A stretch of 64,000 nucleotides of DNA, from the NCBI GenBank assembly GCA_964035015.1, contig OZ036003.1, positions 4,268,407 to 4,332,406 of the forward strand. Reading direction: 5' to 3'. The translations under genes were made by a program, and so were the position numbers. The stretch is from Corallium rubrum. Lineage: Eukaryota; Cnidaria; Anthozoa; Scleralcyonacea; Coralliidae. Positions 3,471 through 45,100 of this stretch are shown piece by piece; the stretch's first letter is position 1, and each line of letters begins with the position of its first letter. Under the pieces are notes generated by a model, which saw only the letters and a list, made by a program, of their open reading frames with translations, searched no databases and had not been told where the DNA came from.

Positions 3471-3512
3471 GGTTGAGTTCGATGTATGACAACCTACGTT
3501 CAAACCATCTCA

Positions 3513-3880
3513 GACCCCGTTTACACGATGCCGGTACAATTTGAAAACGGAACAAAATCGTGCCGGTGTGTAGATACAGGCCAAAAAGTCTTGCGTTTAC
3601 ACGGTGCCGGTATAATATGAGAATTAAGAATACTTTGCGAATACTGCTGACCCAAATACAGTGGTCGTATATATCGTGATTACCGTCATCAAACTGTTAC
3701 GGCACGGGCGTTTACACGATACCGGTTAGTGTTCCGTTTTCATTTCATGCCGTCAAGGAACCCGTCTTCATTTTGTGCCGTTTTCATGTCATTTTTGTGA
3801 CGGTATCGTGTAAACGCAAAGCCTAAACGGCATGATTTTGTTCCGTTTTCAAATTGTACCGGCATCGTGTAAACGGGGTC
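3513..3880. mobile_element. MITE with GACCCCGTTTACAC termini, TCA target duplication
   Basis: Ends are inverted repeats: GACCCCGTTTACACGATGCC at the left and its complement at the right. It is flanked by TCA on both sides (3510-3512, 3881-3883). Inner arms also pair (GGTACAATTTGAAAACGG). A second, larger element with the same GTTTACAC end and a 3-bp duplication lies at 34029-35401. The 3-bp duplication is in the PIF/Harbinger size range, but the superfamily is not proven. Confidence 0.85.
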
Positions 3881-3911
3881 TCAGTCGATCAATGGTTAGA
3901 GTATCACTGGT

Positions 3912-4219
3912 GTATGGTGGCCTATCGTTATCATTCACATTTTTATAATGTTCTAAACAAATGTCAAATTATATCAAAATTAAATTGTAAATGCACTTTT
4001 AATTTGCAAATTAAATTAAAAAATTAAAACTTTATGAATACAAAAGAGAAATTAATTTATTTCTAATTGAAAATAAAATTGAAATTAAATTCAAAATAAA
4101 AATGTAAGTATATTTAAAATAAAAGAAAATTTAAAGTAAAATGAATTTTCAAATGAATTCTCAAATTGAATGCAAATAAAAAATTTTATCGGCCTAGCGC
4201 TATCACAGTATCCCATCAT
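3912..4219 (+). repeat. Left terminal inverted repeat of the alpha-kinase transposon
   Basis: AT-rich 308-base repeat that aligns almost base for base with the complement of 10448-10753. The inner end is CGGCCTAGCGCTA followed by ACAGTATCCCA; the left copy has a small TC insertion there. It ends 17 bases before the transposase ATG, so it probably contains that gene's promoter. Confidence 0.93.
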
Positions 4220-4236
4220 GAATTCCTTGGAACAAC

Positions 4237-6635
4237 ATGGCGGCTGGCTATCTGAGAAATGATGCTTGGCAAAATGATTGTTTGCTACAGGAACAGATGG
4301 AATATTTTGTAAGGCAGGGAATTCATCGGAAAGAAATGTTAGATTTTCTCCAACGGGACTTTCCTCAATATGCATGGAGCATGCCCACCCTTGATAGACG
4401 CCTTCGACATTTCGATATAAGCTACATTGACACCCATGTATCTGTCGATCAGATACGAGAAGCTGTCTCAAAAGAACTCTGTGGTCCTGGCAAACTTTTA
4501 GGGTACCGGGCGATGCACAAGAAAATTCGACAAGAACATGCGTTAAATGTGCCTAGAGATCTTGTTCATGCTGTAATGTACGACCTAGATCCGGATGGTC
4601 TCGAAGCTCGTGCTGTTGGGGCAAAGAAAAAGAAAGCCAAAGGTTGTTTCACAAGCAAAGGACCAAACTGGGTTCACTCGGTTGATGGACACGACAAGAT
4701 GATGGGCTACCATAATAGTACTTTTCCTTTGGCTATTTATGGTTGCTTGGATACATGTAGTAGGAAATTGCTTTTGGCTGCGTATTTGGACCAGTAACTC
4801 CGACCCTAAACTTATTGGACGCTGGTATCTAGAATACTTGTATGAAACTAGAATCATGGCTTCATATATTAGGATGGATAAAGGTACGGAAACTGGAGTA
4901 ATGGCTACCATGCATGCCTTTTTGCGGAATAACCATGCAGATACCACAGATGCGAGTGATACTGTTCTCTATGGTCCATCTACATCTAATCAGGTCAGTA
5001 TAATTACAAATTAATTGGTGAAGGCTTGATTACTAAAAAATAATATGTGTTACTAAGCGTAAGTCTTTAATCTGGCATATCATGTAGATTGAGAGGTGGT
5101 GGAAAGAATTACATGAGAGGATGGAGAAATACTTCAAAGCACAACTTTCTCAGCTGAAAGGCGATCATCATTATGATCCCCATAATGAGACAGATAGGTC
5201 AGTTGTTACAGTTCTCAAAGTTGAAGCCTCAGACTCTTCAGTATAAGCAAACCAGGGGTCCTGTGGCACAGGGTTGTCTTCAATGTTGAATAAAATTCAA
5301 GTAAAATAATGAAAATTTAAATTAAATAAATTTATAAATATAACATTAAGGGTAACAAGCATTTGTTATCCAGTGCTATATTTCCCTTTAATTTTGCATG
5401 ATTTAATTTCATGGATGTACAGTGAATTTCAGTTGGGAGAAAATGTTGTTTTGCCAACTCATAAAAGTGTTTTAGGGGTTGTTGTGGTTATACTTTAAAT
5501 AGGTGGAGAATTGACTTACATGGGCATGTGAGAAAAGTAAAATAGATATTGGAAAAGGAGATGTATAATAATCTTATGTATCATGTGCATTTCAACAACA
5601 TGTATATTCAAACATTTTTGTACTTTTAAGGATGATACTAGCATTTATTCTAATCCCAGTGCTCCAGAAAGAGTTGGATTCTTTCAAAGACACCATTTGG
5701 AACTCTCATAGAATCCGTCAGCAGAAGGATACGGAATTGCCAAAAGGTGTCCCTAATCATATTTATGCATTCCCAGAGGAATATGGGTTAGAAGATTGTG
5801 GTATGTTAAGCATTTTTGAGTCCAGTGATTGCGTTTTTGTACTCCTACTGTATATTGGGTGATGTTCTCTACTTCTCTGAGCTATGTACACATTGATCAA
5901 GCAGAAAAGTGCTTGGCTGCAGTATAAATGGAACCCATAACCTTGGTTTCCTACAGTAGATCCAGTGCTCTAACCACTGATATACAAGCTCTAGTCAGTT
6001 TGGTTTCTACTGCAGTCGAGTTGTTTTCTGGAGTGTGCATAGCTTGGAGAGAATCATCCAACATAGGATGTTGCTCAATGTGGACATGACTCTGAGAGCA
6101 TCAATCAATATATTAGAATCCATTCTAGATGTTGACAGTTTACTCATTATTGGCTTACTGCCTGAAGTTTTGTGATGCATGTGTATAGGTTGTTCACATA
6201 ATTTTTTTCTGATCAGTAGGGATTTCTCTTTGATCAGTAGGGATTTCTCTTATTCAGATTGATTCGGCTTGAGGATCTAAAGCAAATCCATAGATATAAA
6301 GGAGTCAATTTGATCTGATTTAAAAATTCAAATGATTATGATAATGTTGGTGTGTTATGTTTAATGCAAGTGTTGATCATGGTGAAATGATCAGATTCCA
6401 TTGTATATCTTAAGATGCTTTACTTTAATTTTTTATTATTTATCTAGGTTGGCCAGTTACTGAAGATGAGCTTGAAAAAGTGGCACATCAGTCTGGTGTT
6501 CTAGAATATGGTGATGATTTCCTGGAGCAACCTGTAAGGGAAGAATGTAAACGATGGGTGCCAAATGTTAATGATGTTACTTCTGAAGATTGGACTGATG
6601 CCTATTTATATGTTAGAGAGAACTTTTCCCTGTGA
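4237..6635 (+). pseudogene. DDE/integrase-core transposase, 4 exons, one frameshift
   Basis: Exons: 4237-4993, 5088-5197, 5631-5800 and 6448-6635, with GT...AG introns and matching phases. The protein resembles the family annotated in fish, cnidarians and fungi as 'integrase core domain'. An N-terminal DNA-binding region (about residues 1-110) precedes a basic linker GAKKKKAKG and the catalytic core. Candidate catalytic residues are Asp in HSVDGHDKM, Asp in RMDKGTETG and Glu in IERWWKEL. C-terminal segments include LQKELDSFKDTIWNSHRIR and an acidic tail ending at the TGA at 6633-6635. A single extra T in the run at 4772-4775 breaks the frame between the first and second catalytic Asp, so this copy is probably dead unless the base is a sequencing error. 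The start sits 17 bases inside the inverted repeat. Confidence 0.85.
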
Positions 6636-6649
6636 TTCTAAACACAGCA

Positions 6650-6945
6650 TATATATGTAAGAGATAAAGCCCGAGAACAAGGGCTGTATGCTATATACAG
6701 CCCCGAGGACGCGAAGTGTCTTCGTGTCCGTCCTCGCGTCCGAGGGCTGTATATCGCATACAGCCCGACGTTCAAGGGATTTATCTGACTTAATTTATTA
6801 TTGAGGAGGTTTTCCAACAAAGTTTTGTCTTTTTTTCTACCTTGGACAAAGATTTTCCTAGTTTTTTTCTTCATTTCGTATCTAATTAGTATTCAAGGGC
6901 TGTATGCTATATACAGCCCGCGGTACATCAAAGAAAACCGACTCA
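6650..6945. mobile_element. Dispersed MITE (GGGCTGTATGCTATATACAGCCC family)
   Basis: Contains repeated palindromes of the form GGGCTGTATG...ATACAGCCC around CGAGGACGCGAAGTG. A diverged copy in opposite orientation lies at 22583-22862, sharing the stretch with ACCTTGGACAAAGATTTTCC. Both copies start or end near GGGCTTTATC-type sequence. It is a later insertion or a passenger inside the transposon. Confidence 0.7.
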
Positions 6946-6954
6946 ATAATAAAG

Positions 6955-6957
<3 letters not shown>

Positions 6958-7003
<46 letters not shown>

Positions 7004-7060
7004 TAATATATATAATATATATATATAATATATATACAGTATATAATATATATATATATT
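6958..7060. repeat. AT dinucleotide microsatellite
   Basis: A run of alternating TA, about 40 perfect bases followed by imperfect TATAATATA repeats. No gene. Confidence 0.95.
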
Positions 7061-7504
7061 TATTTATACAGTATTCATAATATTTATATACAAAGTTTCA
7101 ATATCTCCAGAACCATTGTAAATATTTCGTTAATATGCCTTTGTCATTTTTAATTGCATACCAGTAATGCTTCAATGCAAACAACTAAGCCTATGAAGAT
7201 AAAAGGACGTGAAAGTATGCAGGCTGAATATTTCTGAGTAGTTTTGTTGCAATGCAGTTATTATCCTTTAATGAAACCAGGTTAAAACAATATTTCCAAT
7301 CCAGTATTTCCAATGATTCTAGAATAAACAATCTAACAGATGGGGCTAGACAGTGAAATTTAAGTGCATGTAGGCAATTGTCGATTTTAGTGATTTTCAT
7401 TTTGTTAGAATAACCAGTTTTATTAGTTATAGCTATATACAAACTTTTACAGGCATATAAACTTTTAAACAACATTTTGTTGCAACGAAAATATATAATA
7501 TTGT

Positions 7505-7625
7505 CTGGGATATGCAAGGGTGTGGGTTGAAAAGAGAGGATGCACAGGAGAAGGAGAAGTGGAGGAAACTGCTGTGGGGAGCTGCCAGCCAACCTCTGTG
7601 TAAGCGAGGAAAACAACTATAAAAC
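7505..7625 (+). mobile_element. 3' end fragment of a non-LTR retrotransposon
   Basis: Plus-strand translation gives a KREDAQEKEKWRKLL-like end followed by a CAGCCAACCTC...GTAAGCGAGGAAAAC hairpin. The same C-terminus and hairpin occur, better preserved, at 48790-48040 on the other strand ([15 protein letters not shown]). This is a short, 5'-truncated copy inside the alpha-kinase transposon. Confidence 0.75.
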
Positions 7626-7904
7626 AAATGTTTTTTTGTTGACTGGTAAGGTCATGCACATGTGTAAAATGGTAAAATAATAGGTAAAATAATAGATTAC
7701 TAGAGTACAATCACAAATCGTAAATCGCAAAAAAAGTTCTCTTCATACAAAAGCTTTATGTTTCACCTTTATATCAATCCATAATCAAAGCTATTTCCCC
7801 TACAAAGTGCTATTAATATCAACTCAACGAAAGTGAACAAGTCAGTCAATAAAGGATAAAATGAAGGTAAAAGTTCCCAAATGCATAATAATTGCAAAAC
7901 AACA

Positions 7905-10364
7905 TCATGACTGCTGCAACTGTGATAAACCTAACAGATTGCAGTAGTCATTGCAGACATGAGAAGATGAAAAATTGGTGATCGCATTAGTGGATAAGTT
8001 TCCAGTGCAAAATAGAAATTCACCATCTGAAAAGGACTCTTTTGTTGCAACTTCAGGATCAAAGAGGTAATAGTCACAACCTTGTATGTCTAAAACCATC
8101 AGTTCCTTATCTGATCGCACAAAGGAATAATGAACAAAGCACTCTGCCTTCTTACACACCTCACTTTCTTCGTCTCCACAAACATCTCCAGTATTGTTAA
8201 TATGTTTGTTAAAGGTGCCAGGAATGAACTCTTCAACAGTGACACATTCATCTGCACACAGCTTTCCAAAGAATATTTTATTGTATTTCAACACTGGACC
8301 AAATTCCTCTAGAACATTGTTTTTCTCCAATTCTTGCTGCAGTCGTGCAGAAAAATTTCTTGCAAGGCAGTGCATTTGGACTACTTTTTTCGTATGCTGC
8401 TCGACAGTTTGACCCAAACTCTCGATATCGGATACAGTTTTGGGCAAGTATTTCTTAACGATCCATGTGGTGCCTTTAAATTCTTTTGTTTGGCTAGTTG
8501 CTTTGAATGCCTGTCGGAATCCCCCTGTGCCAATTAGATCCTTGCTTACAACAAAGTCAACTTTGTCAGGAGTCGGGGCCCAAGCCAAGTTTTCGAAATG
8601 GAACTGATACACAGGTATTTCGGTTACTGATGGCGACTTTATTTCTTTTCCAAGCTTCAACATTTCGACGGCGGACATAAACAACAACAACAACAACAAC
8701 AACAATTTATTTGTACCATACATACAAATTACGTATATACATAAAAATAAAACACAGAATTAAGATGTTCCACATCTTACAATAGATTGGTACTAGCTGC
8801 CTGTAATAACCATATGGGCTAAAAAATACAAGCAGCTAATAAAATGAATTAAATAGTTATTTATATATAGTGACGGAACATTTCAAAATTGGCCTGGCAT
8901 AATATTACAAATATTGAATTAAATATATTATAGTAAATCAGCCAAGCCATCAATAATTATCAATAAATAAAGACAAAAGAGATCTTTTAAATTTAGTCAA
9001 TGAAAATTGCCTCAATTGTTCATCAAGAGAATTCCATATCTTGGGGCCTTGGTATTTTATACTGAAAAGACCATAATTTGTTCTTACCAAAGGAAGGGAA
9101 TATGAAGCCTTAGAGGAGTGTCTAGTATTGTAATTGTGAATTTTATTAACTTGTTTAAAAAAAACTTTCAAAAGCTGGTGGTAGAGCTTTATTATGAAAT
9201 TTGTACATAAAAACATTAATGTGGAAAGTAATTAAATCAGTCAATTTAATTATCTTGGTTTTTCTAAATAACGGACTAGAATGCTCATCAAATTTAGAAA
9301 AAGTTATAATTCTCAATGCTTTTTTTTGTAAAATAAAAAGGGCATTCAAATTTGTGGGTGACGCAGATCCCCAAGCAATTATACCATAAATTAAAAAAGG
9401 ATAGATCAAAGCATAGTAAAGAGTAATTAAAGTGTTCAAATTTATAAAATAGCGAATTTTAGATAACAATCCAATATTTCTTCTTAATTTACTGCAAATA
9501 TATCTAACATGATTTTTCCAATTAAGATTTGAGTCAATAAATATGCCAAGATATTTAACACAATCCTTATTTTCCAACTCCTGATTATTAATATTTAAAA
9601 AAATGGATTGGGTTAAACGCTTTTGTCTTGAGTGAAAAAGTACGAAGTTAGATTTTTCAATATTTAAGGAAAGTTTATTTGCACACAGCCAAATAAAAAT
9701 TTTATCCAATTCCTCATTCAAAACCGCCTCCAACGTTAGCAAATTTTTATTGGCATAAAATAGATTAGAATCATCAGCAAAAAGATGTACATCAAGTAGT
9801 GTACATCTATTGAAATCATTTATATATATACATACTTCGTGGAATGAATTTGCTTGCAGCAGCCTTTCCTCTCACCGGACTTGACTTGGTGGGCACGGAT
9901 TCTACGTCTACGATGTGGATTTTTCTTTTCTTTCCACTGGCCTTACGATACATGTCAGCTGACTCGGACGATGCAGTTCCTTCGGCTTCCACTTTCAACT
10001 TTTTGGCTTCGCCCTCGATAAACCGTACGTAAATTACATTTAGATTTGGAACTTGCTTAATAGATGAACAAGATGGGCCTTGTTCTCCGGCTAATATATC
10101 GCAAACAGTGCCTTCACAAACAACGAAGTGATTCAAGCACACACGTTGTATATTTGGTACCGTCACTTCCTCATACTCGAACGGGACAAACTCTCTCGCA
10201 CCAATTCTTGTGTATTTTTGGGCCTTACCAGAAACATCAGCGCTCAATCGTTGAACAGTAATAGATTCTTCTTCTAAAATTCTAGTACCTGGTGTACTCT
10301 TCTTCCCTGCTCGTTTTGCTGTCATTTGTTTTTTAAAGTTTTTCCACGCTGCTTGATCCGCCAT
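7905..10364 (-). pseudogene. Alpha-kinase (atypical Ser/Thr kinase) cargo gene, split by a LINE
   Basis: Two minus-strand blocks, 10364-9831 (178 codons, starting MADQAAWKNFKK) and 8675-7905 (256 codons plus stop), flank a LINE. Removing it restores one frame, about 434 residues, without needing an intron. The first block is a basic/low-complexity N-terminus. The second is an alpha-kinase domain (MHCK/eEF2K/TRPM7 fold): glycine-rich GTGGFRQAFKA, the likely ATP lysine in WIVKKYLP, EEFIPGTFNKHINNTG, the catalytic-type Asp in LMVLDIQGC, FDPEVAT, GNLSTNAI, and a zinc-type C-x3-C in HVCNDYCNLLGL. Such enzymes phosphorylate Ser/Thr, often in helices. It starts 84 bases inside the right inverted repeat, faces the transposase, and is therefore cargo rather than host sequence. 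With the LINE in place no full product is expected. Confidence 0.85.
8679..9830 (-). mobile_element. 5'-truncated non-LTR retrotransposon inserted in the alpha-kinase gene
   Basis: Minus-strand reverse-transcriptase remnants. They begin at HLFADDSN (the FADD-type catalytic motif, ~9780), continue through WLCANKLSLNIEKSNFVLF, then shift frame near 9160-9200 into a C-terminus with YNTRHS...GPKIWNSL ending at 8950. The element ends in a TTG microsatellite tail (8680-8712). A possible short target duplication (TATG or ATG) lies at both ends. Truncated and frameshifted, so inactive. Confidence 0.85.
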
Positions 10365-10447
10365 TTTAGCATTCGATGCGTCGAAGACACGGCGTGGACA
10401 ACACGAATTACACGAGTCAACACGCGCGACATAGCCGTAACGCAATG

Positions 10448-10753
10448 CATGTTGGGATACTGTAGCGCTAGGCCGATAAAATTTTTTATTTGCATTCAAT
10501 TTGAAAATTCATTTGAAAATTCATTTTACTTTAAATTTTCTTTTATTTTAAATATACTTACATTTTTATTTTGAATTTAATTTCAATTTTATTTTCAATT
10601 AGAAATAAATTAATTTCTCTTTTGTATTCATAAAGTTTTAATTTTTTAATTTAATTTGCAAATTAAAAGTGCATTTACAATTTAATTTTGATTTAATTTG
10701 ACATTTGTTTAGAACATTATAAAAATGTGAATGATAACGATAGGCCACCATAC
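10448..10753 (-). repeat. Right terminal inverted repeat of the alpha-kinase transposon
   Basis: Complementary to 3912-4219 with only scattered differences. It lies directly upstream of the kinase start codon at 10364 and is likely to drive it, as the left copy would drive the transposase. It ends in CCACCATAC, followed by the interrupted SINE. Confidence 0.93.
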
Positions 10754-10799
10754 TGGTGATCAGAAGGTTACAAGTTGTACATATATATTTAATCTTTGC

Positions 10800-12985
10800 T
10801 CAGTGCCGTAGAATCCCGAAAGTAGCGGCCCCCAACAGTGGATAAAACCGAAAGTATAGGGGGGCCGCTACTTTCGGGGGACCTCCACTTTCGGGGACCG
10901 CTACTTTCGAGTGGTAAAATACTGTGAATAAGTAAGTAAAGCAAATACAAACTAAATTTGCTGTATTACATAAAACGAATGCAAGATATCCTCTTAATAT
11001 GAACGTGAAATAAAGTTTTTGGATTGATTTTTTCTCATTAATCGTATTCACCGCTGTTTACGGGGACCGCTACTTTCGAGTGGTAAAATACTGTGAATAA
11101 GTAAGTAAAGCAAATACAAACTAAATTTGCTGTATTACATAAAACGAATGCAAGATATCCTCTTAATATGAACGTGAAATAAAGTTTTTGGATTGATTTT
11201 TCCTCATTAATCGTATTCACCGCTGTTTACGGGGACCGCTACTTTCGAGTGGTAAAATACTGTGAATAAGTAAGTAAAGCAAATACAAACTAAATTTGCT
11301 GTATTACATAAGACGAATGCAAGATATCCTCTTAATATGAACGTGAAATAAAGTTTTTGGATTGATTTTTCCTCATTAATCGTATTCACCGCTGTTTACG
11401 GGGACCGCTACTTTCGAGTGGTAAAATACTGTGAATAAGTAAGTAAAGCAAATACAAACTAAATTTGCTGTATTACATAAGACGAATGCAAGATATCCTC
11501 TTAATATGAACGTGAAATAAAGTTTTTGGATTGATTTTTCCTCATTAATCGTATTCACCGCTGTTTACGGGGACCGCTACTTTCGAGTGGTAAAATACTG
11601 TGAATAAGTAAGTAAAGCAAATACAAACTAAATTTGCTGTATTACATAAGACGAATGCAAGATATCCTCTTAATATGAACGTGAAATAAAGTTTTTGGAT
11701 TGATTTTTCCTCATTAATCGTATTCACCGCTGTTTACGGGGACCGCTACTTTCGAGTGGTAAAATACTGTGAATAAGTAAGTAAAGCAAATACAAACTAA
11801 ATTTGCTGTATTACATAACACGAATGCAAGATATCCTCTTAATATGAACGTGAAATAAAGTTTTTGGATTGATTTTTTCTCATTAATCGTATTCACCGCT
11901 GTTTACGGGGACCGCTACTTTCGAGTGGTAAAATACTGTGAATAAGTAAGTAAAGCAAATACAAACTAAATTTGCTGTATTACATAACACGAATGCAAGA
12001 TATCCTCTTAATATGAACGTGAAATAAAGTTTTTGGATTGATTTTTCCTCATTAATCGTATTCACCGCTGTTTACGGGGACCGCTACTTTCGAGTGGTAA
12101 AATACTGTGAATAAGTAAGTAAAGCAAATACAAACTAAATTTGCTGTATTACATAAGACGAATGCAAGATATCCTCTTAATATGAACGTGAAATAAAGTT
12201 TTTGGATTGATTTTTCCTCATTAATCGTATTCACCGCTGTTTACGGGGACCGCTACTTTCGAGTGGTAAAATACTGTGAATAAGTAAGTAAAGCAAATAC
12301 AAACTAAATTTGCTGTATTACATAAGACGAATGCAAGATATCCTCTTAATATGAACGTGAAATAAAGTTTTTGGATTGATTTTTCCTCATTAATCGTATT
12401 CACCGCTGTTTACGGGGACCGCTACTTTCGAGTGGTAAAATACTGTGAATAAGTAAGTAAAGCAAATACAAACTAAATTTGCTGTATTACATAAAACGAA
12501 TGCAAGATATCCTCTTAATATGAACGTGAAATAAAGTTTTTGGATTGATTTTTCCTCATTAATCGTATTCACCGCTGTTTACGGGAACCGCTACTTTCGA
12601 GTGGTAAAATACTGTGAATAAGTAAGTAAAGCAAATACAAACTAAATTTGCTGTATTACATAAGACGAATGCAAGATATCCTCTTAATATGAACGTGAAA
12701 TAAAGTTTTTGGATTGATTTTTCCTCATTAATCGTATTCACCGCTGTTTACGGGGACCGCTACTTTCGAGTGGTAAAATACTGTGAATAAGTAAGTAAAG
12801 CAAACACAAACTAAATTTGCTGTATTACATAAGACGAATGCAAGATACCCTCTTAATATGAACGTGAAATAAAGTTTTTAGATTGATTTTTCCTCATTAA
12901 TCGTATTCACCGCTACTTTCCGGGGGGCCGCTACTTTCGGAAATTTTTAAGACATCTGAAATCTGCCGCTACTTTCGGGGGCCCG
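10800..12985. repeat. 169-bp satellite, 12 near-identical tandem copies
   Basis: Unit starts are at 10893 and then every 169 bases to 12752; the last copy ends near 12920. Copies differ by single bases. Each contains GGGGACCGCTACTTTCGAG and a GAAATAAAGTTTTTGG segment. Both flanks hold extra short copies of a CCGCTACTTTCGGGG motif (10815-10910 and 12905-12985). Each unit has a 60-codon minus-strand frame overlapping the next by 14 bases; because 169 is not a multiple of three the frame moves one step per unit, so these are structural artefacts and not genes. It lies in intron 1 of the ADAMTS-like gene. Confidence 0.95.
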
Positions 12986-36144: not shown

Positions 36145-39100
36145 CTAAAAAAACATGTTAATATAATTCTAAGTATAATTATTAAAATTGGTGTTCGGGC
36201 GCGGGCGGTAGGCGGGCAACGGGAAATACCGCCTGCCCCCAAACCATGTGTTTTTTAATTCCGCCCACCGAAGTTTGTTTAAGAGAACGAATCAGAACGT
36301 GAGCTAATAATAGTGATTTTGACAACTTTGTTTCAATGGCTTTCTCTGCTGTGCAGTAAATAAATTGAGGCGGTGATCGCACTACGTCCGTAAAGTTTCA
36401 TTGGAGAGTTCAGCTGCTGTGCAGTTAAGCGATTCAAGGGTAGGGTGAGGCGGTTAATCGATAAACCGGAAAAAACCGATGTTTTTCGAAAACCGATTCG
36501 ACCGATGTTGCTCCAGGCAAAAAACCGAAAAACCGAAAAAACCGAAAAAACCCGTTTGAATCTCAGTAACATTGAAACAAAATGGCAGTAATAATTACAG
36601 GGAAGCGAAGCATCAAAGCTAAGCCGGATCACACGCTTGATTGGTTCAGCAAATCAGCGCCCTGATTGGTTCAACAGAAAGCGGACCTCTGCGAAGACAG
36701 GTAGCGTATGACTCATCGCAAAAATATTCAGAGTTAACAAATTAACATATAAACACGTGCAATAGCATTCAAACATTAAACTTCAGTTGGTCGTTTGCTT
36801 ACACTATCCCGAAGTCTTTCTGTTTTTGTTAAAATGAGTAAGAGTGCAGTTTGGAATTTCTTTAAGAAGCCAGAAAGAGGAGAGGATTTTGCCGTGTGCA
36901 AAATCTGTACGCAGTCCGTTAAAAACAAGGGAGGAAAGACAACCAATTTGCTGCAACATCTTCGAAGAACCCATCCTTCCCAATATGCGACGATGACTCC
37001 ATCAGGACGAAAGTCAGCACCGAGTCGAGCGACAAGCGATAGCAGCCCAGTTTCATCAGATACGCAAGTTACCCAACCTACAGTAAAGAGCCTCTTTGCC
37101 AGCAGCACGCCATTAACACCTGGTAACAAGCGCCACGAAAGTATAACAGATGCCATCACATACTTTCTCTGTAAAGACAACGTCCCGTTTAACGCAGTGA
37201 GCCGACCAGGATTTCAAAAACTATTGAACGTATTAGAGCCACGCTACAAGATTCCAAACAAGACAACGTTTTCGAAAAACAAACTTGCAAAGCTGTATGA
37301 TGTCACCAGAGAAGCAGTTATGCTAGACTTAAACAGCATAAACTACTTCGCATCTACAACTGACATGTGGTCTTCTCACGGCTTGACACCGTACATGGGA
37401 TTCACGTTGCATTGGGTAGACGCTGAGTGGAAGTTACAAAGCCGAAACCTTGGGACAAAGTTTGTTCCTGATGACCACACTGCCGAACAGTTGACCGAGA
37501 CGATGAACGACATGCGTGGGCATTGGAAACTGAGCGCTTCGAAGCAAATTGCCATAACCACAGACAATGGTTCAAACGGGTCCTACTAAACACCGTCCGG
37601 GACCGTCCGTGAACCGTCCGGGACTGGTCCGTGCCATTAATTTAATCCTCTATGATCAAGAGAATCTTTAATGTACTTATAACTTACCTTGATTACATTC
37701 GTCAATTGGTTTTTCAATTAAAAAAAAACTCGAGAAATGAAATGTTAAAAAAATATACAACTCCCGTTTCTTTTGTAACATATTTATTGTCCTTAATTGA
37801 TTAGACTGATTAATGCCCTGACGTTTTTGAGTTCTAGCACATTTCACTCTCTTTCGCTGACCAGGTTTTCTTGCTGTTTTTTGAGTTTTTGGTATGGTTA
37901 GCCTTCCATCTGCTGACTTGACAAAAGAGATTTTGGCGAACGGCCATTTTGCCGAAAGACATTTCACCGAACGGCCATTTTGCCGAATGGACAACTTTTT
38001 GCCGAAAAGTACATTTTGCCGAAGGGACAATTTGCCGAAAGACATTTTGCCGAATGTTATCTCGCCAAAATAAACTCATCCAAATTTTTAAATTTTCTTT
38101 GAGACGACGACTCATTTGTCAGGTCTGAAAAGAAATCCACTCTTTCGGCAGCATTGCGGCATCGCGATTAATTGTGAATCGGAGAATAGTGAATAGATCG
38201 TACATTGAGAATAGTGAATAGAACATTTAATATTGTTGAAGAGTATTTAAAAAGCTGATTTAACGTCGCTTAATACATAAAACTAACTAATATTTATCAC
38301 GGACGGTCATAATGACATCCCGGACGGTCACGGGCGGTCACGGGCGGTCCCGGACGGTGTTTAGTAGGACCGGTTCAAACATAAAGAAAGCCTGCAAAGA
38401 CAACAAATGGACAAACTTGCCATGTTTTGGACACAATCTCCACCTCGCAATCACCAATACCATGAAGAACAACCCAAGAGTACAGCGTGCATTGGGTGTA
38501 TCCAAGAAAATCGTGGCAGCTTTTGGCACAAGCTGGAAGAGACGGAGAGATCTTGCCGCAGCTCAAGTTCAAGAGGAACCTGGACAAAAGTTCAAGAATT
38601 TGTCATCGGTGGGTATTGAGTAATTGAGTATTTTTAATATCATTATATTAATAGGTTCGTGAGCAATGTGTTATGTATTATTGAGACTATATAAACTTAA
38701 GTCAATCAAAAGTTTCAAAACTTAGTTACTGTTTTTTACTAAACAATTTTTGTTGTGTCGCATGAACAATGATTTTAGATGTGCCCAACACGTTGGGGTT
38801 CCACACAACACATGATCAGCAGGGTGCTGCGCAATAAGAAGGCCATTCGACGAGTTCTTGGCAACGACAAGGATACTTCCCATTTGGTCCCGAAGTGGCA
38901 AGATTTGGAAGTCTTGGAGTGTGTGGATAAAGCACTTGGTCCGCTGAAGGCGTTCACAGATATTATGTCTGCGAGCAACTATGTGGCAATAAGTGCGTTA
39001 AAGCCAATTCTCCATCGCCTGTCAACAACTGAATTGGCCCCTCAAGATGACGATTTGCCATTGGCCGCCGAAATCAAGGAGGAGGTCATGACGCGACTAC

Positions 39101-42100
39101 AAGCGCGTTATGTTGCCGATCGATTGAAAGGTTTGATGAATGTCGCATCATTCTTGGATGCTAGATACAAGACTGATTTTTTAGAAACAGAAAGCGAAGA
39201 ATTGAACAATGTCAAAGAGGAGCTCTTGAAGAATGTTGTTCTTCTAGAGTGCAGCATTGAAGAAGAAGAAGAAGATGTCTTGCCATCGCCCGCTGCAAAG
39301 AAGGCAAAACTCAGCCTTGGGGCATTGACCAGCCTGAAAAAGAAAGAAACGGCGTCACCAGCAGCCTCTCCACATAGCCGTCTCTCCAAGGAGATTGACA
39401 CTTACCTCAGTTATCCAGTCATTGACGGAGACGACGAACCTTTAGAATGGTGGAAGGTTAACGCAAAAGAACTTCCGTTACTGTCACAATTGGCAAGAAT
39501 ATACCTCGCCATTCAAGCCACCAGTTCGCCATCAGAGAGGCTTTTTAGCAAAGCGGGGCAAGTTGCTACACCAGCGCGAGCGCAACTAAAGCCCGAGAAA
39601 GTTGACAAACTTGTCTTCCTAGCGGAGAATTTGTAAGGATAGACTATCGCATTCGCTTGTATATAGATAGAAAGAAAGCCAGTTTTACTGTTACTTAGTC
39701 ATTTCCTTGTGTGTAGAACGTATATAGCTACAATGTTTGAAAATTTAATTCTTGTAAATATTACGATACATTGTACTAACTGTTTTAAAAACTAAAGTCT
39801 TGAACGTGTAGCGTGAAGTTTAATCAAGTAAATCTACAGATATAAATATCGATTTTTTCGGTTTTTTCGGTTTTTTCCAGGCGGTTTTCGGTTTTTACCC
39901 TGAACCGCCTCACCCTATTCAAGGGAAGAGATTAGATCGTTTATAATACTCTTCAAGGGAGAGACCACGAGTACAGAACAGTCATCATTAATAATGCCAG
40001 ACATTGTCATCATCTCATGCTTCACCAAAGTCTACACGGTAAATATCATACTTTTACAAAATCCAGTTGGCAAAATTGCAATCACATCTCTACCAAGAAG
40101 TAGATATTCAACTGAAATTCGTTGTTCACTCTTCAAAACGACGTGACGACCGTAGCGCTTGATTGCCCACTCACGTCTTCCAAATTCGAAGCCGTCAATC
40201 AAAATCAATATTCTGACCAATCAGAATTCTTCGTCACCCAGCGGACGGACAATTCAAAAACACATGGTTTTGGGGCAGGCGGCACGGCACGATCGAGAAT
40301 CGCATAGAATATCGGCCACGCTCATGGGGCAGTTCGCAGTTCACGTGCGTGCTGGCTCAAGTGAGTTGTCGCCGACTCGGCCGCACACGCACGCACGCAA
40401 AACAATAACAAGTGAACTGTCCATACAGTATATAGCCAAAAACAGAATCAAGACAAATAAAAAATCAATCAAAGTTATCTGATAGTTGAGATATTTATTC
40501 ACCCTCCAAAGTTGATTGGGTTTGTTTTATGTCACCTCGTCACTTCGTCAGTCGTCAAGTACACTTTCCACGACTGATTCGAACTTTAAAATCCGTTTTA
40601 AAGGTCAATTGGGTACACACATCTGCCAACAAAACAACCCGGCTTCCTTTGGGGGTAGTAAACGGCCAACAAACAACATATTTTAGTCCTTTTACATGGA
40701 CGTTTACCATACTATATCGCATCTTGTTGTTCGTCTAATTTTTCCGCCATATTTGATTTCAAGTCAGCAAATCCTTGATATCCTACAATATCCCTGGTAT
40801 CCTCTTCAACGGATCCATTGTTTACCTCTATCTTCCTAATTTTATCGTATGAACCCACATGTACCACAGCGCTCCTTCGCTCCTCATTCATCTCACGCCA
40901 GTCTCGCGTGTATTGATGACGTTTACACGCAAGATATTCGTTCTACGCATGCGTAACTAAACGAGGTCAGCCTGGATTTCGCGAGACACGACAACCGCGA
41001 TTTCTGATCGTGTATTTCCCGTTACCCGCCTACTGCCCGAGCCCGAACCCCCTAATACCGCCAGCTACGCAGGCTAAAGAAAGTACATTTATTATAATCC
41101 CCGAGCCGGGCGTAGGGCCGAAGGCCCGAGCCCGGTGAGGGTGCTAATCTCGACATGCGTGGAGTCCACTTTACACGCGTGTAGAAAAAGCGAGGGAGAC
41201 GAAATCTGTAAATAGTTTATATATTTATATATATATATATGTTTGGTACGGTGTCACGCGGTAAGAATAGTTGGACACTGGTGACTAGCTATGAAGAAAA
41301 CTAAATCTCCATATTTTGCGAAACAAAATGGTTTCGTTTAACGAAACGGAATGAAGCCGGAGCTACTTAGCTTAAAAGGGAACAGCGAAGAAAAGAAGAA
41401 GACAAACAGCCGGTTTAATATATGTTGAAGAGAAACCAGAGAACCTGAAGAAACCAAACACCAACATCAGTGGTCTCAAAATCAAGTTAACGGTAGGGTA
41501 TTTGTATTTATTTATTTTGCTGATTGGAATCAGAATATTTATATATTCTGTAAACGCCAAGATCAGGTTAAAGTTTCAGTATACCTTGGGCTTGTCCTTT
41601 ATATGTTGTTTTCAAGTTTTCGCTTACCTAAACAATATACAGGTTCACGTTTTCGTGCTCGTCCAAACCATATGTCAGCTTATTAACTATAGCTAACTTA
41701 AAACACTACCTTAAGCTTAAGTGGACGTGAGGTTTTTCATTGACTTTGCATGCACTATTATTAAAAATAGTCATGGGCTTTGCCGATTTTCTTGGCGGTA
41801 TTTCCAAATTTTCGACTGAAACGTTGTCTGTTCAATACTTCTTTCTGGAATCCGATTCTACTGACTCTGTTAAAAATGTTATTTTTGAGCTATTAACGTT
41901 TAATTCTGCCTTTGCAAAAGTATAAAACATGTATGGATATGGAAGCCATTTAAAGGCTTGCTAAAAATATTAAACCCTTTTGAAACCTCCTAAAAACAAT
42001 ATATTTTTTACAACAAGAATTTAATGAAATCTAAGTTTTGCTTTGATATCCTATCTATAAATTTTATAATTATCCTGAGGTTTATATCTGTTTGTTTTTA

Positions 42101-45100
42101 TATTGGCTGTATATCAAGGGTGCTTATTTCAATCAGTGGGTGGGTGGGTGTTTGGGGGGTGTTTAAAAAAGTGGGCGAGGGGTTGTTGCGTTGATGTATT
42201 TCTAGTATGCAAATTTAAGACCAATTTTTGGCTAGGATTGTATGTTGTCACTGTCAGGTTTTATTCTCGTTTCCGCTAAAAGGAACGAGTGGGGGCGAGG
42301 CAGGCAGGCGGGCGAGAAGACGAGAAAAATAAAGCCTGATACAATGCTTTACCTGGCCGCTTTCCGCAACCAAATGAATTTTCTGAATCTCCCAATCGAC
42401 GCAGCTTTAATCGCACAATCCATCCGTTCCAAGTTTGAAATTTGCTGTTTCCTTAGATATTCAAGCCGACTCACGACTGCAATCCAGAATTATTTCAAGT
42501 AATTCTTCTTTCATGAGCTTGCTTATACGTCTCTTCGTAGACGATTGGGAGAAGTTGGTATGTTAAATTCTTGCCACAACCAGTACGGAGTAGAGCTAGC
42601 ACATCCTCATTAAACAGGACTAAAGGAAAGGCTCTTTTCCACTCATCGCAGAAACTAGTTCGCAGCTTGCTGCGAGTACTTGTATCTCATTAGAAAGAAC
42701 TCACAACGAGAAAACAAGCACTGCGAGTTGTTTTTAATTAGATGCAAACACTCGCAGCGAGCTGGTTTTTGCGATGACTGGAAAAGAGCCTTTAGGGGAT
42801 GTTAACATGAGGCCGGCCTGAATTTTGCGTTTCAATTTTTGTTTACATGAGGCCGGCCTTGAAACTATATTGGTTTGGTTTCGTCTTCAAGATTTGTGTC
42901 AATTGCCTTACAGCTCGTGTTCGCCGAAGAATCATTATTTTACCCCTTTGAGGCCTGGACCTCTCCCTGTGCTGAATAAAATCGTCTGGTGTTAGCCCGA
43001 ATAAAATACTAAAGACTCGTCTTCAGGCTTCAAAGTGTTAAAGAGATAGGTTTAACATTTTGAGGCCTGGACCTCTCCCTGTGCCAAATAAAATCGTCTG
43101 GCGTTAGCCAGATAAAATACTAAAGACTCGTCTTCAGGCTTCAAATTGTTAAAAAGATACGTTTTAACACTTTGAGGCCGGGACCTCACCCTGTGCTGAA
43201 TAAAATCGTCTGGCGTTATCCAGACTAAAATACTAAAGACTCGTCTTCAGGCTTCAAAGGGTTATGTAGATGTGACACCATATCTCATTTAAAACAACGT
43301 ATACGAGTTTGAGAGGTGGAAGTGCTTCAGTTCGGTCTAACAGGCGATCTGAGATTAGGCAACTGAATTTCAGGCCGCTCTCATGAAAACGAAATTATGT
43401 AAAAATCATAATTCATAATTAAATTTTTGTCTTATGGACCAATCAGACGAAAAAGCCAAAATGTTTTTTTCTTTGCATGCGGCCAGGTAAAGAATTTTAT
43501 CAGGCCCTACTCTTTCTCTTCCTCCGCAGTTTCACTCTGTTTCACTCAGCCTGCAAGTTTCCCGTCTCACGGGAAGGTAAAGCGGGCCTGATTCTGTCAG
43601 GTTAGGTTGTCACACACGATCGGAAATGGCGGCTGTCGAGGCTCGCGAAATACGGGCTGACCCGTATTAGCTACGCATGCGTAGAACGAATATCTTGCGT
43701 GTAAACGTCATCAATACACGGCCGACAACTCACTTGAGCCAGCACGCACGTGGACTGCGAACTGCCCTATGAAAGTGGCCGATTTTCTATGCGATTTCCG
43801 ATCGTGTCAAACAGTAAATTCTTTTTACTATCTATGATAGCACTCTTATCAGTACACCTTAAAATTATGCTGAAAGTAATTGTGAGCTACTTTGACAAAC
43901 CTTCAGTATCTTGTGTAGTGCCTGGCTTTGCGTCGTGATCATCACCGTTACTCAACTCTTCATGTTTTCTCTTCGCTGATTTTTTCGTGATTGTTGAATC
44001 AGTAGCAGGGTTGTAACCTTTCACTTCACTAACAAAACAAAATAAAATAAAATAATGATTGTTGCAAAGACAGCATCGTTATTTATCCCCCCACATTTAT
44101 GCACTATTCATTTGAATGGCTACCAGCGACCAGATGCTCAGATAGCTAAAGCTCGATTTCCAGTCGTATCTCGGGCTCCGGTACTTACCTCCCCCGAATA
44201 AGGGCTAATTTATATCCGCATGAAAGAATTCTAATTCGACGGCCATTTATGAATAAGGTCTATGGCCAATATATTTTCGTCTTTTAGCCTACAGAACCAG
44301 GGAAGTCACTTATATTTCAGTCAGCTTCTATGGTTTTTGATATCGTAAAATTAATTTATGCAAAACGTCACAGACATGCTCTGTGGCTCACGCGTCCAGC
44401 CGTCTGCCGTCTCTTTCGGAGGAGGTATGTATACCGGGGCCTGGGAGACGGTTGGAAATCGAGCCTACCAGATAGCCAATCAAATGAAAGGTCAAAACAA
44501 TTTTGTAAGGAACTTCTGAAATACGTGTACTGTACTGTACTGTACTGTACTGTACTGTACTGTACTGTACTGTACTGTACTGTACTGTACTGTACTGTAC
44601 TGTACTGTACTGTACTGTACTGTACTGTACTGTACTGTACTGTACTGTACTGTACTGTACTTACCCTTTCATTTCATATTTCTCCGCTTTTGCGGCAGAT
44701 TTCCCTGAACCACTTAATTTCTTCAACTGAAAGGCAAATAATATAATTTATAACAGACGTTTGGTGGACGTTACTCAGAAAATATCTCTGAGCCCCAGAC
44801 AGGGTTCGAACCTGTAACCTTCTAATGACCGGTTAAACGCTCTAACCATTGAACCACAGAGGCTCAGATGGGAAGCTTAAGTGGTAGCGTTTGCATATGT
44901 GCTGTAATTTAAGTGCCAATGCAGCGAAAATTAAGTTTGTCTAGTTTGAAAGAACATTGAAAATGACAAAGTAACATCTTTTGTAGAATTTCGTTTCCTT
45001 ACTTCATTCTTGAGATATTCAGGTTTGTTTGATATGTAAATGACCTACTTATGACATCACACTGCATAATGACTTTTTTAAAGAGCATCAATTTTAGATG

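Follow-up and report, generated by a model that had tools for sequence, protein, structure and literature searches.

A two-gene IS3EU transposon lineage of Corallium rubrum in which a facing alpha-kinase is the probable partner of the transposase

The stretch of Corallium rubrum DNA analysed here (the window; 64,000 nucleotides of contig OZ036003.1) contains a 6,840-bp DNA transposon at positions 3913-10752, in a genome of 474 Mb on 312 contigs. By its hallmarks, i.e., TAYGG..CCRTA termini, a 6-bp target duplication and an integrase-like DDE transposase, the element can be assigned to the IS3EU superfamily. The integrase-type transposase and the facing alpha-kinase that the original prediction had described are both present, with start codons at 4237 and 10361, respectively, just inside the inverted ends. 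The ends may, as had been suggested, act as paired promoters. The element probably represents a two-gene IS3EU lineage in which the alpha-kinase is a co-inherited partner or regulator of the DDE transposase and not an accidental cargo. The features of the window copy are listed in Table 1.

Table 1. Features of the IS3EU copy and its target site, in window coordinates
Feature	Position	Strand	Basis or remark
IS3EU transposon copy, starts TATGGTGGCC, finishes GGCCACCATA	3913..10752	+	6,840 bp
Left target-site duplication CTGGTG	3907..3912	.	flank reading
Right target-site duplication CTGGTG	10753..10758	.	flank reading
Left terminal inverted repeat, about 310 bp	3913..4224	+	inverted-repeat comparison
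Right terminal inverted repeat	10444..10752	-	inverted-repeat comparison
Outer motif GGCCTATCGTTATCATTC, left end	3919..3936	+	motif comparison
Inner direct repeat of terminal motif, GGCCTAGCGCTATCACAG, left end	4191..4208	+	13/18, shuffle p 0.005
Inner motif, right end, 3 bases shorter	10460..10474	-	11/18, p 0.265
Outer (terminal) motif, right end	10729..10746	-	motif comparison
Transposase exon 1, frameshifted in window copy	4237..4993	+	frames; splice site inferred from sequence
Transposase exon 2 (IERWWKELHERMEKYF...; Glu presumably catalytic)	5088..5197	+	frames; boundaries inferred
Transposase exon 3	5631..5800	+	frames; boundaries inferred
Transposase exon 4, includes stop codon	6448..6635	+	frames; boundaries inferred
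Alpha-kinase C-terminal part (alpha-kinase domain)	7905..8679	-	PF02816, E 8.6e-34
LINE fragment with reverse-transcriptase remnant and (TTG)n tail	8680..9829	-	comparison with L010; remnant recognised by eye
Alpha-kinase N-terminal part (conserved domain, fold without match; basic start)	9830..10361	-	frames, relatives

The near-identical inverted ends, previously put at about 307 bp, were confirmed: the arms 3912-4202 and 10463-10753 are 99% complementary over 291 nt without gaps, and a gapped alignment of the two ends (3912-4224 versus 10444-10753; this copy is element L009) reaches 97.8% over about 313 nt. The element is real, but its earlier limits, 3912 and 10753, each include one extra base: the G and the C that the two CTGGTG duplications contribute at these positions pair by chance. 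The target had been placed inside a SINE. When the two flanks are joined over a single CTGGTG, at least 152 places in the genome match them (40 of 582 candidates were scored). Of the matches listed, nearly all span the junction, one is the right flank of the window itself, and many belong to tandem arrays with a spacing of about 87 bp. A tRNA-Thr(ggt)-like gene of the window (44790-44863) also aligns with the joined flanks (79% over 53 nt), and by the alignment coordinates the duplicated CTGGTG corresponds to the anticodon of the tRNA-Thr-like unit. The duplication within a repeat thus stands, but on account of these arrays and this alignment the repeat is better named tRNA-Thr-like than a SINE.

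Several observations concern the surroundings of the element. Tandem tRNA-Thr(ggt)-like units, about one every 87 bp, occur at many places (contigs C53, C46 and C52, and also 44790-44863) and can be read either as clustered tRNA genes or as a tRNA-derived satellite. A 169-bp tandem satellite lies near the element at 10889-12000 and possibly further, with six copies of about 99% identity in the part searched. Just left of the insertion, an inverted repeat at 3509-3884 (57-nt arms, 96% complementary, 262 nt between them) is possibly another small transposon. Farther along the plus strand, two long frames (36780-37586 and 38779-39633), the first of which starts like a BED-type zinc finger, may together represent a hAT transposase. 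Elsewhere, contig C129 contains several broken COX1 frames and an intact one, which is open under the standard code, an odd feature for an animal mitochondrion.

The four-exon structure of the transposase gene was drawn by eye from GT-AG signals and from the intronless relatives in L058 and L059. The exon 1 frame of the window copy closes at 4794 and coding continues in the next frame, while the same frame is open in relatives. In Pfam, the integrase core PF24764 is found in the intronless relatives (2.3e-22 in L059, 3.2e-21 in L058); the exon-1 frames of L010-L012 match it weakly (6e-4 to 3e-5, short of the curated cut-off), and the transposase pieces of the window copy gave no Pfam match. 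NCBIfam yielded no family for the transposase or the kinase of L010. Among the transposase matches listed, relatives with species names come from octocorals, sea anemones, a hydrozoan and a tunicate.

The kinase gene of the window is interrupted by the LINE fragment, which measures 1,150 bp, is associated with a 5-bp duplication (ACATA) and has no reverse-transcriptase match in Pfam. The window copy is dead in both genes, since exon 1 of the transposase is frameshifted and the kinase is divided by the LINE fragment; open frames for these genes persist in relatives. Element L010, which is 98.4-99.2% identical to the window copy over three main aligned stretches, encodes the N-terminal part and the kinase domain in a single open frame. 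Only PF02816 (1.6e-33) exceeds the Pfam cut-off in this protein, with no further domain detected.

Nineteen elements were examined whole: 12 located by their ends (L009-L020) and 7 of 68 further listed pairs, chosen for diversity. The genome search with the ends, which had been proposed as a check, showed that all 12 elements with both ends contain both genes in opposite orientation. The other four loci from this search contain a kinase fragment only (L021), the transposase only (L022 and L024) or neither gene (L023), so that ends without a kinase do occur. Such copies (L022, L023 and L024) had been named in advance as evidence against a mobilised kinase; they exist, but they are outnumbered by paired copies. 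TATGG..CCATA termini are found in 18 of the 19 elements, the remaining one being L055, whose ends were not located. Perfect 6-bp duplications flank 17 elements and represent 16 different sites, one being common to L017 and L018; the misses are L055 and also L058, whose flanks differ. With both genes between the ends and with these duplications, the elements bear out the claim that an alpha-kinase is mobilised by cut and paste. A consensus from 16 sites (15 elements and a short element in L023) gives, when symmetrised, a target of about A-CWSSWG-T, with 20 of 48 palindromic pairs versus 12.5 expected (p 0.012).

The two ends of a copy are 97.8-99.7% alike in nine of the ten copies of families A and B; those of L016 are 90.4% alike, with a gap, and those of the other nine elements 82-99%. 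The short element in L023 (3716-3977, 262 bp) has ends of the same kind and its own 6-bp duplication, GTTCAG. It is likely a non-autonomous miniature form, and its ends and duplication suggest movement in trans.

The pairing of the two genes was analysed genome-wide at 119 kinase places, left from 147 rows after removal of 28 that were further fragments of a locus already counted, and at 144 transposase places, likewise freed of such fragments, from at least 152 matches. Close and distant transposases were separated at 91 bits, a cut chosen after the table had been seen. A facing kinase lies within 13 kb of 85 of the 101 close transposases, while 5 have a kinase in another orientation and 11 have none. 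For the 41 distant transposases (31-38% identical), the corresponding numbers are 1, 2 and 38, and two transposase fragments, counted separately, divide into one with a facing kinase and one with none. In a control with transposase positions shifted by 50 or 100 kb, 0 or 1 of the 144 was paired. Conversely, a facing transposase is present at 87 of the 119 kinase places and none is listed for 32, a proportion to be read with a kinase query that favours transposon kinases. A PF02816 search, compared by eye, revealed no additional kinase beside the distant transposase group. PF24764 is very common in this genome (1,351 candidates, 150 scored) while pairing is nearly confined to the close transposases; the kinase is therefore characteristic of a single clade within a large family of transposases.

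Alpha-kinases are normally host enzymes, and a host alpha-kinase locus in or beside which a transposon landed by chance is one alternative to a two-gene element. The highest-scoring Pfam matches of the genome (contigs C1, C23 and C46) look host-like and lie outside transposon copies. However, the kinase is found within the same ends and target duplications in many copies and diverges along with the transposase, which leaves this alternative next to no probability. A host locus or an accidental neighbour was therefore rejected: many copies share the ends, both genes and the target duplications. As a separate observation, about ten places (on C124, C197, C141, C188, C8, C82 and C1) contain short alpha-kinase pieces outside the transposon-kinase table; these lie within positions 36-149 of the profile, mostly 70-149, and are perhaps an exon of another family.

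Kinase and transposase are co-inherited. Across 11 families, represented by one element each, their distance matrices correlate with r 0.93 (permutation p 1e-4). Both trees contain ((A,B),C); H, I and J are grouped in the kinase tree and H and I in the transposase tree. No conflict exists among supported branches, with 4/8 and 5/8 of the inner branches of the two trees unresolved and J forming a long branch in the kinase tree. The comparison of kinase dN/dS between copies, proposed at the outset, gave a divided answer. Between L010 and four family B copies, dN/dS is 0.06-0.08 for the kinase and 0.07 for the transposase, at a dS of 2.5-3.1 (saturated) and 1.3, respectively; the kinase ratios are thus rough, because dS is saturated between families. 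Within family B (6 pairs with few changes), the kinase ratios of 0.36-1.7 show no sign of selection, as expected for drifting young copies, and the transposase gives 0.29-0.58. Among 35 frames, some of which represent one place twice, no kinase pair with a dS of 0.05-1.5 was found.

These data bear on the possibility that a host alpha-kinase was captured once and has since been carried passively, without function. Ratios of up to 1.7 among young copies would fit such a cargo, as would the state of the frames: in 12 of the 19 elements one stop-to-stop frame of 414 codons or more encodes the kinase, and 7 lack such a frame. Against it stand the identity of 70-72% that families A and B retain despite saturated silent sites, the pairing of most close transposases with a kinase and the preservation of the active site in relatives (see below), so that passive carriage is very improbable. 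A good case therefore exists for the kinase as a partner and not as cargo. The view of the kinase as an unusual cargo is likewise not upheld, since this IS3EU lineage regularly has it as its second gene (85/101) and since section 4.1 of PMC12730594 has put the arrangement in print for fungi.

That section, from 2025, describes fungal IS3EU elements with a transposase and an alpha-kinase in opposite orientation. Compared by description, they resemble the present elements in their 6-bp duplications, TAYGG..CCRTA termini, terminal inverted repeats of more than 30 bp and opposed genes. A TET/JBP gene between both genes characterises the fungal TET+ families in the accessible text of PMC12730594, where the TET genes are interpreted as an escape from silencing; none was noticed among the frames here. 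IS3EU/GingerRoot elements, with TA..TA termini, usually 6-bp duplications and an integrase-like transposase (PMC10045372), have termini, duplication length and transposase type in common with the elements described here. That account does not mention a kinase (the word occurs 0 times), whereas a kinase is the second gene here. The IS3EU-derived fungal element Styx has four coding sequences, in contrast to the two genes found here, and its ancestor is drawn as an IS3EU element 'encoding two proteins' (PMC10853768). The second of these proteins has no name in the text accessible from that source. In the portion available of a 2012 meeting report, several transposon superfamilies are said to contain conserved host-acquired proteins that are thought to be regulators of transposition (PMC3520738). 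Given these three accounts (PMC12730594, PMC10853768 and PMC3520738), the transposase-kinase architecture and the general idea behind it are already known, and the animal elements are new members. A search of the open-access literature (PMC) found no paper on an animal IS3EU element with an alpha-kinase.

Conservation of the kinase was assessed in an alignment of 107 proteins, namely L010 and 106 of the best 120 of 335 hits, 14 having been dropped as short or outlying. All 107 match PF02816 (E 0.01 or less), and a P-loop is also among the alpha-kinase features that accompany this membership. In a profile search against PDB, the first match is 1ia9 (1.9e-29), followed by MHCK A and eEF2K. The catalytic Asp and Gln are invariant (107/107), the ATP-site Lys is present in 106/107 and the second Asp in 105/107; the first His of the Zn ligands occurs in 107/107 and the others in 101-104 of 107. 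The roles of the active-site and Zn residues are presumably those of their TRPM7 counterparts, with positions transferred by alignment to 1ia9. The kinase relatives with species names, among the matches listed, are from octocorals, sea anemones, a stony coral and an acorn worm, and some relatives carry database labels such as 'TRPM6-like' or 'alpha-protein kinase vwkA-like'. Of 133 pattern matches to possible relatives in virus contigs, 0 were confirmed.

The transposon kinase has its alpha-kinase domain in common with the TRPM7 channel-kinase, MHCK A and eEF2K, but is set apart from them by a distinct N-terminal domain. Of the 19 invariant columns of the alignment, 8 fall within residues 1-115, and this domain has no match in a profile search of PDB (best E 1.9) or in Pfam (best E 0.14, in 1 of 11 members). 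The first 36 or so residues have a mean net charge of +5.5, and the linker contains a K[KR]x[KR] basic cluster in 49 of 107 kinases versus 12.6 expected from shuffled linkers; the cluster is absent in 58/107. A nuclear location of the kinase is plausible on the basis of this linker cluster. A pattern search for end-encoded peptides upstream of the relatives' starts (usable in 1 kinase and 5 transposases) found none. By eye, relative P0015 combines a transposase-like start, a motif-like peptide and a kinase in a single frame.

The ends of the elements contain a second, same-orientation copy of the terminal 18-mer, which lies 169-370 bp inward, within the inner portion of each end. This inner copy was found at 35 of 36 ends in 18 elements (p 0.01 or less; 200 mononucleotide shuffles per end, which keep composition only, L055 being left out). 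The one exception is the right end of the window copy, where the inner copy has lost three bases and is at chance level; in L060 an inverted match is nearly equal (15-16 of 18). Inner and outer motifs agree at 15.0/18 positions within a family versus 12.6/18 across families (10 families, p 2e-5). Two binding sites per end are thus probable, and the simplest reading would be that one protein binds the inner and outer motifs and that both sites keep pace with it. Sleeping Beauty-type IR/DR ends likewise have two direct motif copies per inverted end. The Sleeping Beauty transposase belongs to a superfamily unrelated to the one found here, and the likeness is one of sequence alone.

In the mechanism proposed for the two-gene lineage, the transposase would probably bind the outer and inner motif copies, two per end, cut, and then insert at weakly palindromic CWSSWG-like targets with duplication of 6 bp. 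The kinase, probably nuclear, would most likely phosphorylate either the transposase itself or a host protein involved in chromatin or repair, and this phosphorylation would license or time transposition. A stricter version, put forward tentatively as one possibility, makes the kinase an obligate part of the transposition machine, with its N-terminal domain docking on the transposase or on the paired motifs and phosphorylation switching the complex on. Alternatively, the kinase may target the host by blunting silencing, DNA-damage signalling or defence, and may be kept since the element survives better. This host-directed role, which is rather unlikely in itself, overlaps in part with the proposed mechanism, where a host substrate is also allowed. 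It equally predicts an active, co-inherited kinase, accords with the nuclear-type basic cluster in nearly half of the relatives and has a parallel in the fungal transposon TET genes, as interpreted in the accessible text of PMC12730594. Nevertheless, the near-confinement of the kinase to one transposase clade and the fixed facing layout fit a partner of the transposase at least equally well.

A kinase that belonged to the transposition machine would give these elements a post-translational switch of their own. The pairing also contains a warning for annotation, as transposon kinases may pass as host genes (87 of the 119 kinase places have a facing transposase). In rusts, the alpha-kinase family is described as highly expanded (two genomes tabulated in the accessible part of PMC4469406 have 79 and 39 copies), and such published expansions may count transposon genes. 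Should the kinase prove obligate, transposon genes would account for much of the rust-fungal 'alpha-kinase gene family expansion' and of what is labelled 'TRPM6-like' in marine animals.
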